Source: an uncultured Bacteroidota bacterium (GTDB lineage: Bacteria; Bacteroidota; Bacteroidia; Flavobacteriales; Flavobacteriaceae). Taken from it: DNA of 50,051 bases. The DNA lies in NCBI GenBank assembly GCA_902626365.1, contig CACOFE010000009.1:1-50051 (forward strand). The letters run 5' to 3'. Below, piece by piece: positions 28,910 through 47,421 of the stretch; the stretch's first letter is position 1; each line of letters opens with the position of its first letter. The position numbers were made by a program, and so were the translations under genes. A model generated the notes under the pieces. The model saw only the letters and a program-made list of their open reading frames with translations. It was not told the origin of the DNA and did not search any database.

Positions 28910-28917
28910 TAAATTTG
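28910..28917 (+). promoter_or_regulatory. -7 box TAAATTTG upstream of the zapB-like gene
   Basis: An exact TAnnTTTG match 19 bases before the GTG start at 28937. No TTTG lies at the right distance upstream. Confidence 0.45.
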
Positions 28918-28936: not shown

Positions 28937-29227
28937 GTGAAAAAAATTCAGGATTTGTTGTTTGATTTAGAAAAAAAAGTTGAGTCTAGTTTAGCTGAGC
29001 TTTCAAAGTTGAAGAATGAAAAAAATGATTTATTAGACAAGAATCAAATCCTTATTAATGAAAAGAATGAATTGAATGCAGAATTTAGATTACTTGATGA
29101 AAGATTTAAGGCTTTAAAAATTGCAAATACTATTTCAGGTAGTGAAAATAATATTAATGAAACAAGAAGTGAGATTGACTCACTTATTAGAGAAATAGAT
29201 ACATGTATTTCTCAATTATCAGACTAG
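28937..29227 (+). CDS. ZapB-like coiled-coil protein
   Basis: A 96-residue protein starting at GTG. It is almost wholly charged heptad-like sequence (LFDLEKKVESSLAELSKLKN, LLDKNQILINEKNELNAEFR) with a conserved-looking end EIDSLIREIDTCISQLSD, so it should form a parallel coiled coil. Its place three bases before zapA suggests a partner in the division ring, comparable in shape to ZapB, but sequence homology to E. coli ZapB cannot be shown from this. Confidence 0.75.
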   Translation: MKKIQDLLFDLEKKVESSLAELSKLKNEKNDLLDKNQILINEKNELNAEFRLLDERFKALKIANTISGSENNINETRSEIDSLIREIDTCISQLSD

Positions 29228-29230
29228 AAA

Positions 29231-29518
29231 ATGAGTGATAAGCTCAAAATTAAGTTGTCAGTTGCTAACAGGATTTATCCTTTAACTATTGATCCATCTC
29301 AAGAGGAAGGTTTAAGGTTAGCTTCCCAGCAAATTAATGGTCTGATAAAAAAATTTGAACAGAATTATTCTGTTCGTGATAAGCAAGATGCTCTAGCGAT
29401 GTGTGCGCTTCAGATTGCCTCTAGTAAGAAACAAAGTTCTTTGAATGAAGAAACATTTATTAATGATATAGAGGATAGATTATCCAAGATGATAAATATT
29501 CTTGATGATAAGAAATAA
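29231..29518 (+). CDS. zapA: Cell division protein ZapA
   Basis: A 95-residue ZapA-family protein (KIKLSVANRIYPLTIDPSQE, EGLRLASQQINGLIKKFEQN, DKQDALAMCALQIAS). The N-terminal globular head and C-terminal helix match the family in size and layout. ZapA cross-links FtsZ filaments in the cytoplasm. The gene is followed by the 6S RNA candidate and rny, the same neighbourhood (zapA next to 6S RNA) known from proteobacteria. Confidence 0.92.
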   Translation: MSDKLKIKLSVANRIYPLTIDPSQEEGLRLASQQINGLIKKFEQNYSVRDKQDALAMCALQIASSKKQSSLNEETFINDIEDRLSKMINILDDKK

Positions 29519-29543
29519 GTTCTTTACATAAAATTATAAAACT

Positions 29544-29706
29544 ACCTACATTAGTTTTTTTTGTAAACTCAACGCTAATTAATTATAAAGGGTGAGTTTA
29601 GATTGTTAAATCGTGCTGAAATTTTATTCAGATTTTTGATCAGTCTTGTAGCCCTAATCCTGTTTAACTGGAGTTTAAATAAAAAAGCTTTTGTAGGTTT
29701 TTTTTT
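29544..29706 (+). ncRNA. ssrS: Candidate 6S RNA (6S-Flavo type)
   Basis: The 202-base zapA-rny gap holds a long rod-like fold. ACCTACA (29544-29550) pairs with TGTAGGT (29692-29698). After a 4x4 internal loop, TTTTTT pairs with AAAAAA, and TAAACTC (29564-29570) pairs with GAGTTTA (29671-29677), leaving a large central region. The same 5' arm, as TAAACTCA (29564-29571), can instead pair with TGAGTTTA (29593-29600). The 3' arm runs into a T tract at 29698-29706, which fits termination. Closing stem, open centre, an alternative hairpin and the zapA neighbourhood all fit 6S RNA, which binds the housekeeping RNA polymerase. Exact ends are estimates, and no covariance test was done. Confidence 0.72.
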
Positions 29707-29720
29707 AAAAATTTTAAAAC

Positions 29721-31292
29721 ATGGAAATATCAACAACCTTACTTATTTATGCATTAATTGGATTTATTATTGGAATGATTATAATGCGGTTTATTAACAA
29801 AAACAAGTCTATTGGTTTATTGAATGATGCTAAAAAAGAAGCAGAAAAAATTATCGAATCTGCAAATGAAAAAGGGGATAACATTAAAAAGAATAAAATT
29901 ATTCAGGCAAAAGAAAAATTCTTGGAATTAAAGTCTGAACATGAAAAAATTATTTTTTCAAGAGAAGATAAAATCAAGGCCATCGAAAGAGAAATTTCAT
30001 CTAAAGAATCTCAAGTTGACAGTATAATAAAGAAAAATCAGGCCTTAAATTCAGATTTGGAAAAAAGACACCTTGAGGTTCAGGATAAGATCAACTCATT
30101 GGAAAAGAAAACAAAAGAGGTTGAAAAGGTCAGAAAAAATCAAATTAAAAAACTAGAATTAATTTCTGGTCTTTCAGAAAAAGAAGCAAAAGATAGTCTA
30201 TTAGAGTCTCTTAAAAAGGATGCAGAAAATGATGCATTAGTTTATGCAAAAGAAAAGATGGAGGAAGCTCAATTAACGGTTAAGGAAAATGCAAAAAAGG
30301 TTATTCTAAATACAATTCAAAGAATTGGTGCTGAGGAAACTATTGACAATACAGTTTCCGTATTTAATATTGAGTCTGACGATATTAAAGGAAGAATAAT
30401 TGGAAGGGAGGGAAGAAATATTAGAGCACTTGAGTCGGCTACTGGTGTTGAGATTATTGTTGACGATACTCCGGAAGCAATAATTCTTTCCTGTTTTGAT
30501 TCAATAAGAAGAGAAATAGCTAGATTATCTTTACATAAACTTGTTAAAGATGGTAGGATTCATCCTGCTAGAATTGAGGAGATCGTAAAAAAAACAAAAA
30601 AAGAAATTGATCAAGAAATTATTGAGGTTGGAAAAAGAACGGTTATTGATTTAGGAATAAATGGCCTACATCCAGAGTTGATTAAATACGTTGGTAGGAT
30701 GAAATATAGATCATCTTATGGACAAAATTTACTGCAGCATTCAAAAGAAGTTGCAAAATTATGTGCAATAATGGCATCAGAAATGGGAATTGATTCTAAA
30801 ATGGCAAAAAGAGCTGGTCTTTTACATGATATTGGAAAAGTACCAAGTATAGAAAAGGATACAGAAACACCACATGCGATACTCGGTATGCAATGGGCTG
30901 AAAAATATGGAGAAAAATCGGATGTTTGTAATGCTATTGGTGCACATCACGATGAAATAGAGATGAATTGTTTAATATCTCCAATAATTCAGGTTTGTGA
31001 TGCAATGTCAGGCGCTCGCCCAGGTGCTAGAAGACAAGTTTTAGATTCTTACATAGAGAGATTAAAAAATCTTGAAGAGATAGCGCTTGATTTTAATGGG
31101 GTTGAAAAGGCTTATGCCATTCAAGCTGGTCGTGAATTAAGGGTTATGGTGGAAAGTGAAAAGATAAATGATGATGAAGCATCAAATTTGTCATTTCAGA
31201 TTTCTCAAAAAATTCAAACTGATATGACATACCCAGGTCAAGTTAAAGTTACTGTTATTAGGGAAACTCGTGCTGTTAATATTGCTAAGTAG
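29721..31292 (+). CDS. rny: Ribonuclease Y
   Basis: A 523-residue RNase Y. Residues 4-22 form an N-terminal membrane anchor ([18 protein letters not shown]), followed by a long charged coiled coil to about residue 190. A KH domain holds [20 protein letters not shown] near 225-250. The HD domain has [18 protein letters not shown] and [12 protein letters not shown] near 350-376 with the metal-binding His-Asp pair. It is an endoribonuclease that starts mRNA decay at the inner membrane. Its stop overlaps the convergent xerD by eight bases. Confidence 0.96.
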
Positions 31293-47101: not shown

Positions 47102-47105
47102 CATT

Positions 47106-47395
47106 GTGAATCGTCTTGTCGCTATTTATAGAGGAAAGTCCGAACACCAAAGTACAGCACAATGGCTAACGGCCATCAATCGAAAGATTAGGAAAAGTGC
47201 AACAGAAAGTATGTACAGGTAATGCTGTAGTGAAATCATGTAAACTCTGTGCGGTGAAATGCCATGTAAACCAGCTCTTGAGAGTTGTACGCTCGATGCT
47301 GGAGGGTGGGCAGCTAGAACATATAGGCAACTATATGTCAAGATAAATGACAAGAACTTTTTAATAAAGTACAGAATTCGGCTTATAGATTCACT
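47106..47395 (+). ncRNA. rnpB: RNase P RNA
   Basis: The conserved core of bacterial type A RNase P RNA is present in order: GAGGAAAGTCCG at 47131-47142, ACAGAAAGTA-type sequence near 47202, GGTGAAATGCC near 47252, GGAGGGTGGGCAG at 47301-47313, GATAAATGAC at 47342-47351 and ACAGAATTCGGCTTAT at 47371-47386. The ends pair as P1: GTGAATC (47106-47112) with GATTCAC (47388-47394). ACATATAG-GCAA-CTATATGT at 47319-47338 is a P18-like hairpin with a GNRA tetraloop. At about 290 nt it is short for type A. It is the ribozyme that matures tRNA 5' ends. Confidence 0.96.
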
Positions 47396-47396
47396 G

Positions 47397-47421
47397 AAAA
47401 GCGGGTATTACCCGCTTTTTT
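47397..47421. terminator. Bidirectional terminator shared by rnpB and rsmD
   Basis: AAAAGCGGGT (47397-47406), loop ATT, then ACCCGCTTTTTT (47410-47421). It starts two bases after the rnpB 3' end. On the minus strand the same hairpin ends in TTTT and the rsmD TAA stop (47410-47408) lies in its loop, so it can end transcription from both sides. Confidence 0.9.

Follow-up and report, generated by a model that had tools for sequence, protein, structure and literature searches.

The window, that is, the whole stretch of 50,051 nucleotides of DNA analysed here, comes from a flavobacterial genome bin of 1.30 Mb that is 68% complete. A bacterial class A RNase P RNA lies at 47103-47401 of the window (194.6 bits). 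Pfam profiles together with Rfam revealed a locus with the gene order weakly ZapB-like ORF, zapA, 6S RNA and rny (Table 1). The gap between zapA and rny matched 6S-Flavo RNA, RF01685 (Weinberg et al., 2010; excerpt of PMC2864571), in an Rfam covariance search, with a score of 100.3 bits against a gathering cut-off of 85. The conserved rod with an open central region that marks members of RF01685 was found here, and the fold of 29535-29705 (-42.4 kcal/mol, z -4.69) was equalled in energy by 0 of 200 shuffles. The proteobacterial 6S model RF00013 gave no match in the window at E up to 10, nor did the Rfam search match Bacteroidales-1 (RF01693) in the window. The initial annotation had proposed a 6S RNA candidate between zapA and rny, unlike proteobacterial 6S RNA in sequence and like it in its zapA neighbourhood. 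The Rfam match, the covarying rod described below and the conserved position after zapA supported this proposal, and the zapB-like/zapA/6S order is the same as the zapB-zapA-ssrS order of beta- and gamma-proteobacteria (excerpt of PMC7641849). The element in the gap is an ordinary member of the 6S RNA family, new only as a further member of RF01685.

Table 1. Positions of genes, RNA segments and putative signals at the zapA-rny locus, in window coordinates
Feature	Position	Strand	Remarks
TAAATTTG, match to flavobacterial sigma-A -7 box TAnnTTTG	28910..28917	+	27 nt upstream of the zapB-like ORF; likely operon promoter
zapB-like coiled-coil ORF (96 aa)	28937..29227	+	PF06005, E 2e-4, under the curated cut-off
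zapA (95 aa)	29231..29518	+	PF05164, E 1.8e-16
boxA-like GTTCTTT	29519..29525	+	abuts the zapA stop codon on its 3' side; first bases of the interval in the initial annotation; putative boxA
6S RNA gene, estimated span	29542..29706	+	ends estimated from closing stem and T-run
Outer closing stem, 5' strand	29544..29561	+	partner 29681-29698; helices 1 and 2: both-side changes in 9/16 pairs
H1 (inner closing helix), 5' strand	29564..29570	+	partner 29671-29677
RF01685 6S-Flavo match	29567..29676	+	100.3 bits
Central bubble, 5' side	29571..29588	+	AAC 29571-29573: putative pRNA template start, running back through H1
P2	29589..29593	+	partner 29651-29655; helix 5: both-side changes in 4/5 pairs
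TGAGTTTA, local alternative partner of 29564-29571	29593..29600	+	in the rod: last P2 base, P2-P3 internal loop, first P3 base
Upstream arm	29600..29646	+	P3 29600-29610 with 29635-29646; apical hairpin 29616-29620 with 29627-29631
H1 3' strand GAGTTTA	29671..29677	+	inner closing helix
Closing stem 3' strand, then T-run	29681..29706	+	terminator-like end; putative termination
rny (RNase Y)	29721..31292	+	PF12072, E 3.7e-31

6S RNA was found in 20/20 genomes of the same genus, in 247 of 249 sampled genomes of the family and, under strict filters, in 14/296 genomes across the class. The gap itself was also surveyed in 70 class loci, chosen among 130 genomes in which rny was matched, with the window's family excluded and at most three loci per family. 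zapA stood upstream of rny in 67 of the 70, and a 6S RNA was recognised by eye, in gaps longer than 130 nt only, in 13 of those 67 gaps, representing 10 families. Since 12 of these 13 were excised by scripts using ACTCAAC-like motifs, the conservation of their 5' arm and AAC is in part built in; complementarity played no role in choosing the 3' partner, and the ends were placed on the closing stem and the T-run. For 14 of the 16 loci outside the family, all carrying 6S-like genes, the Rfam scan gave no match at E up to 0.01 (L072, L074, L082, L088, L093, L096, L097, L100, L103, L104, L107, L112, L042 and L043), so that many Bacteroidia 6S genes are missed by Rfam; in a separate search L042 and L043 matched RF01685 at 38 bits, far under the cut-off. 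Detection of 6S RNA is reported for Flavobacterium psychrophilum (excerpt of PMC9723704) and, with two pRNA classes, for Bacteroides thetaiotaomicron (excerpt of PMC7366714).

Transcriptional supply of the 6S RNA gene

The flavobacterial -7 box is given as TAnnTTTG (excerpt of PMC9723704), and its placement was analysed at 92 of 93 loci (90 from the family and 3 from f5 and f86). The box occurred within 110 nt upstream of the zapB-like ORF at 89/92 loci, where shuffles averaged 10.6 and peaked at 18, and within the shorter stretch of 60 nt upstream of the 6S RNA at 2/92 (shuffled mean 3.2), which is no more than chance. A close sigma-A promoter for the 6S RNA was therefore rejected. A scan for E. 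coli-type promoters gave 4 promoter-like sites compared with 7.3 in shuffles, and an intrinsic-terminator scan, whose 8-nt loop limit excludes a stem formed by the whole RNA, gave no site at the rod end. The 6S RNA here probably lacks its own sigma-A promoter and is transcribed from the one upstream of zapB-zapA.

The sequence following zapA carries a recurrent element. In the family, 63/90 loci had GTTCTTT at -4 to +24 nt relative to the zapA stop codon (shuffled mean 0.1), and 33 of the 90 matched GYTCTTTAANA, the gamma-proteobacterial boxA consensus (excerpt of PMC5725501), in full; the window's own GTTCTTTACAT departs from this gamma-proteobacterial consensus at 2 of 11 positions. In the class sample outside the family, GTTCTTT occurred in 10 of the 13 gaps with a 6S RNA (L072, L074, L082, L088, L093, L096, L097, L100, L103 and L112) and in 2 of the 54 without (Fisher p 7e-8, relatedness uncorrected). 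GTTCTTT was sought across the entire gap in this count, which favours long gaps; all exact matches fell between -9 and +8 nt relative to the stop codon. The spacing between element and 6S RNA is tight within the family (20-31 nt), and outside it the distance of the element to the 6S RNA ranges from 12 to 104 nt and that to the stop codon from -9 to +8 nt. Furthermore, among 80 loci from named genomes, GTTC[TA]TT followed 29 of the 41 stop codons that precede a 6S core, compared with 3 of 272 other stop codons.

The association has exceptions in both directions. The element is missing at 8 of 19 loci of the window's own genus despite the retained 6S RNA, and both f5 and L107 have a 6S RNA after zapA without it; in f5 only a divergent GATCATTGA was seen before the 16S gene. 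Conversely, the 6S-like locus L229 (f68) has no zapA match and yet carries CGTTCTTT at a distance of 32 nt upstream of the model match; the element may travel with the 6S RNA. One of the 2 positive gaps among the 54, L099 (f42), holds the element, a 6S-like closing stem and a T-run without the body between them and is probably a fossil 6S locus; L074, also from f42, has a complete 6S gene. The 219-nt zapA-rny gap of L080 (f45) contains a boxA-like element and a T-run with no recognisable 6S RNA, and possibly holds a very divergent or decayed one.

Leaders of ribosomal RNA carry boxA. In the class, the 16S leaders of f19, f20, f24, f42 and f61 contain GTTCTTTGA and one of f54 contains GTTCTTTAAG. 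In the family, the 16S leaders of 33 genomes carried GTTCATT (22 genomes) or GTTCATA (7 genomes) at an apparently homologous place, and 0/33 carried GTTCTTT there, though most family 6S elements read GTTCTTT. Four family 6S loci have GTTCATT (L032, L033, L035 and L050); the 16S leader reads GTTCATT in the genomes of L032 and L035 and GTTCATA in that of L050, and is cut off in that of L033. Concordance between the 6S element and the 16S leader element within a genome, considered as proof of boxA, failed to hold. The elements upstream of the 6S RNA and in the 16S leaders are putative boxA sites.

A boxA-like element at this position would recruit NusB/S10, and the untranslated 6S stretch would thereby be spared cut-off by Rho. 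The NusB gene was found in 19/22 genomes searched and was not found in the window's bin, which is 68% complete. Judged from sequence and position, recruitment of NusB/S10 against Rho is somewhat favoured. Alternatively, GTTCTTT at the zapA stop codon could, instead of being boxA, belong to a promoter that escaped recognition or mark where the 6S RNA is cleaved during maturation. The near-constant distance between element and 6S RNA in the family and the adjoining RNase gene rny both point that way, and the lack of GTTCTTT at the homologous place in the family 16S leaders raised the weight of this alternative and lowered that of boxA at the operon tail. However, in other families it is the distance to the 6S RNA that varies and not that to the stop codon, the core is shared with 16S leaders of other families of the class, and 33 of the 90 family loci are exact to the gamma-proteobacterial consensus, so that a promoter or cleavage site is considered somewhat unlikely. 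Because of the distribution of the element and the placement of the -7 box, we favour a zapB-zapA-6S operon, in which the 6S RNA would be transcribed as part of the operon and Nus antitermination would carry the polymerase past the last stop codon. Among the literature matches listed, openly licensed papers judged by title and the start of the abstract, none concerned a boxA upstream of a 6S RNA.

The rod, its inner closing helix and the local hairpin

The structure was evaluated in two alignments. A1 comprised 63 distinct full-length family sequences (66 family loci minus the exact duplicates L014, L046 and L059), aligned on sequence alone, and A2 comprised 22 rows from 13 families, 6 of them from the window's family and 16 from outside (the 13 class-gap 6S RNAs and three further loci, one from f86, one from f76 and a second one from f5). 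For the window a rod of 47 pairs was predicted, and 92.2% of its cells were paired in A1, with both-side changes in 24/47 pairs and 202 cells; 0/500 shuffles reached either value, relatedness being uncorrected in the shuffle controls. When the rod was slid by 1-3 columns, only 8-12 pairs showed both-side changes.

H1, which borders the open central region towards the termini, was paired in 99.1% of cells in A1, where its only covarying pair was a change from U-A to C-G in 4 sequences, a result reached by 141/500 shuffles. In A2, 96.1% of 153 cells were paired and compensatory changes occurred at all 7 pairs (0/500 shuffles), for example TAAACTT with AAGTTTA in L104 and TGAACTC with GAGTTCA in L112. 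Moreover, in a register-free test the 3' arm contained the full 7-nt partner in 13 of the 16 outside rows and 6/7 positions of it in the other three (L043, L088 and L096). The RF01685 model leaves the strands of H1 unpaired and stops short of the outer stem, whereas both are supported by covariation here.

Judging from the family to which it belongs, the rod would mimic an open promoter and hold sigma-A RNA polymerase. In the release model for Bacillus subtilis 6S-1 RNA, the polymerase transcribes the strand adjacent to the bubble, opening the helix to which this strand belongs (excerpt of PMC8876501). By analogy with that model, we infer the position of the pRNA template in the window RNA: the polymerase would copy a short pRNA starting near AAC at 29571-29573 and running back through TAAACTC, which would open H1. 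When 29561-29573 was blocked in silico, a test in which the start and length of the pRNA were assumed, more than 8 pairs on average formed across the bubble in 25/63 relatives, resembling the collapse helix of B. subtilis 6S-1 RNA, and A1 rows such as L002, L004, L009 and L069 gained a collapse helix of 10-12 pairs. The same blocked folding predicted no collapse helix in the window's own RNA or in its genus.

The 5' arm has a second potential partner. As the initial annotation had stated, TAAACTCA at 29564-29571 can pair either with GAGTTTA of the 3' arm or with TGAGTTTA at 29593-29600, and all three pieces are exact; TGAGTTTA is not rare, with 9 copies in the window compared with 4.0 expected. 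Covariation in A1 and A2 upheld the rod and H1 but gave the local hairpin no compensatory change at all: the pairing of TAAACTCA with TGAGTTTA was 89.7% paired in A1 and 56.8% paired in A2, with 0 compensatory changes in each. The 8-nt local partner was intact in 45/63 A1 rows and altered in the remaining 18, and the entire 8-bp hairpin was kept in 40/63. The full 7-nt local partner occurred in 0/16 outside rows in the register-free test, in which two rows reached 6/7. In equilibrium folding of A1, the probability of H1 exceeded 0.5 in 62/63 rows and that of the local alternative exceeded 0.1 in 0/63, and the best fold of the window RNA with the local hairpin was 4.8 kcal/mol worse than the rod at 37 C. 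Folding of prefixes, which is an equilibrium and not a kinetic calculation, gave the local hairpin a probability of 0.97-0.998 when the RNA was cut at 29600-29650 and of 0.003 from 29690 on. Since the hairpin dominates solely before the 3' arm is made, it is best explained as a folding intermediate, which would form transiently during folding and be displaced by the 3' arm. The conservation of TGAGTTTA can be explained without the hairpin, because its bases serve the end of P2, the P2-P3 loop and the start of P3 in the rod.

The hairpin could instead be a selected folding checkpoint specific to the family, guarding the 5' arm until the 3' arm emerges, or a built-in pRNA mimic. Prefix folding fits such a role, TGAGTTTA is identical in sequence to the putative pRNA core, and 58/63 A1 rows retain the local ACTCA:TGAGT core. 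Nevertheless, the P2-P3 internal loop, which holds most of these bases in the rod, explains the conservation equally well, and the five rows that lost the GAGT core (L034 and L036-L039) still gave H1 a probability of 0.87-0.99. We consider a checkpoint or mimic rather improbable. The conserved core, the existence of both pairings and the strong prediction of the hairpin ahead of 3' arm synthesis could also be read in favour of the switch proposed by the initial annotation, in which the 5' arm would exchange the 3' arm for the local TGAGTTTA at outgrowth and so free the 6S RNA from the polymerase. This proposal did not survive: neither the 63 rows of A1 nor the 22 of A2 contained a compensatory change, all 8 pairs were kept in fewer than two thirds of the family rows, and full local partners were absent from the outside rows, though two came close. 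In addition, the pRNA would displace both pairings, because its template strand is the 5' arm itself. A release switch was rejected on covariation and energy and is very improbable, and the folding intermediate remains the preferred reading of the hairpin.

The gene downstream is less constant than the 6S RNA. In 9/20 sister genomes rny was missing or a remnant beside an intact 6S RNA and zapA (loci in brackets): G004 (L024), G007 (L018), G008 (L007), G009 (L027), G011 (L006), G012 (L016), G014 (L026), G018 (L021) and G019 (L022). Genome-wide, an rny match was found in 12/20 sister genomes, whose bins are 56-86% complete; 9 of the matches were full-length, and a single internal stop interrupted one of the nine. 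The window's genus appears to be losing RNase Y. A role of the gap as a cis-regulatory leader of rny, as might be read from the rny match downstream at 63/70 RF01685-derived loci (3 of them remnants), was rejected and has next to no probability, because the rod and T-run outlast rny in these nine sister genomes and the element belongs to a named trans-acting family.

Relation to known systems and meaning for the family

Compared with known 6S RNAs, the window RNA is like 6S-Flavo RF01685 in sequence, structure, phylum and score, and nothing essential differs. Bacteroidales-1 RF01693, for which an Rfam note suggests the name 6S-Bacteroidales RNA, also forms a rod with an H1-like helix at L225-L228 (f47 and f70), pairing GAAACTC with GAGTTTC. 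Unlike 6S RNAs of the window type, however, these loci have no adjoining zapA match and no GTTC[TA]TT within 180 nt upstream, and TAnnTTTG boxes were recognised by eye upstream of them. The f5 6S RNA matched both RF01685 and RF01693 weakly. With B. subtilis 6S-1 (excerpt of PMC8876501), the likeness lies in the putative pRNA release at the bubble-adjacent helix and in the collapse helix predicted for the 25 relatives, and the difference in that none is predicted for the window RNA. E. coli-type ssrS 6S RNA (RF00013) also follows zapB-zapA, but there ygfA often lies downstream whereas here it is rny. Finally, the boxA known from rRNA leaders and from suhB (excerpt of PMC5725501) shares with the window element the GTTCTTTA core upstream of the RNA that would be served, and differs from it in that the window element stands at a stop codon before a 6S RNA gene.

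Taken as a whole, the explanation that combines a 6S rod, release by pRNA, a hairpin intermediate and supply from zapB-zapA is judged highly probable; the step from boxA to NusB/S10 stands apart, at its own lower grade. More broadly, we put forward tentatively, at somewhat under even chances, that in much of Bacteroidia the 6S RNA is the untranslated tail of the zapB-zapA operon, without a sigma-A promoter of its own and enabled by a boxA located at the stop codon of zapA.

The 6S RNA itself was to be expected here. Covariation shows which of the two pairings selection kept, and H1 and the outer stem are supported beyond the Rfam model. What would matter is the supply of this RNA: a putative boxA before a regulatory RNA that is not ribosomal, recurring across families that have 6S RNA. 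It would open to direct test, in culturable flavobacteria, how the 6S level is set at a locus where no sigma-A promoter can be recognised for the gene itself. If the proposal is true, the 6S level would be coupled to the antitermination machinery of rRNA, the zapB-zapA-6S order found also in proteobacteria would be of early origin, and a brake on the housekeeping polymerase would share Nus antitermination control with ribosomal RNA and be tied to a cell-division operon.
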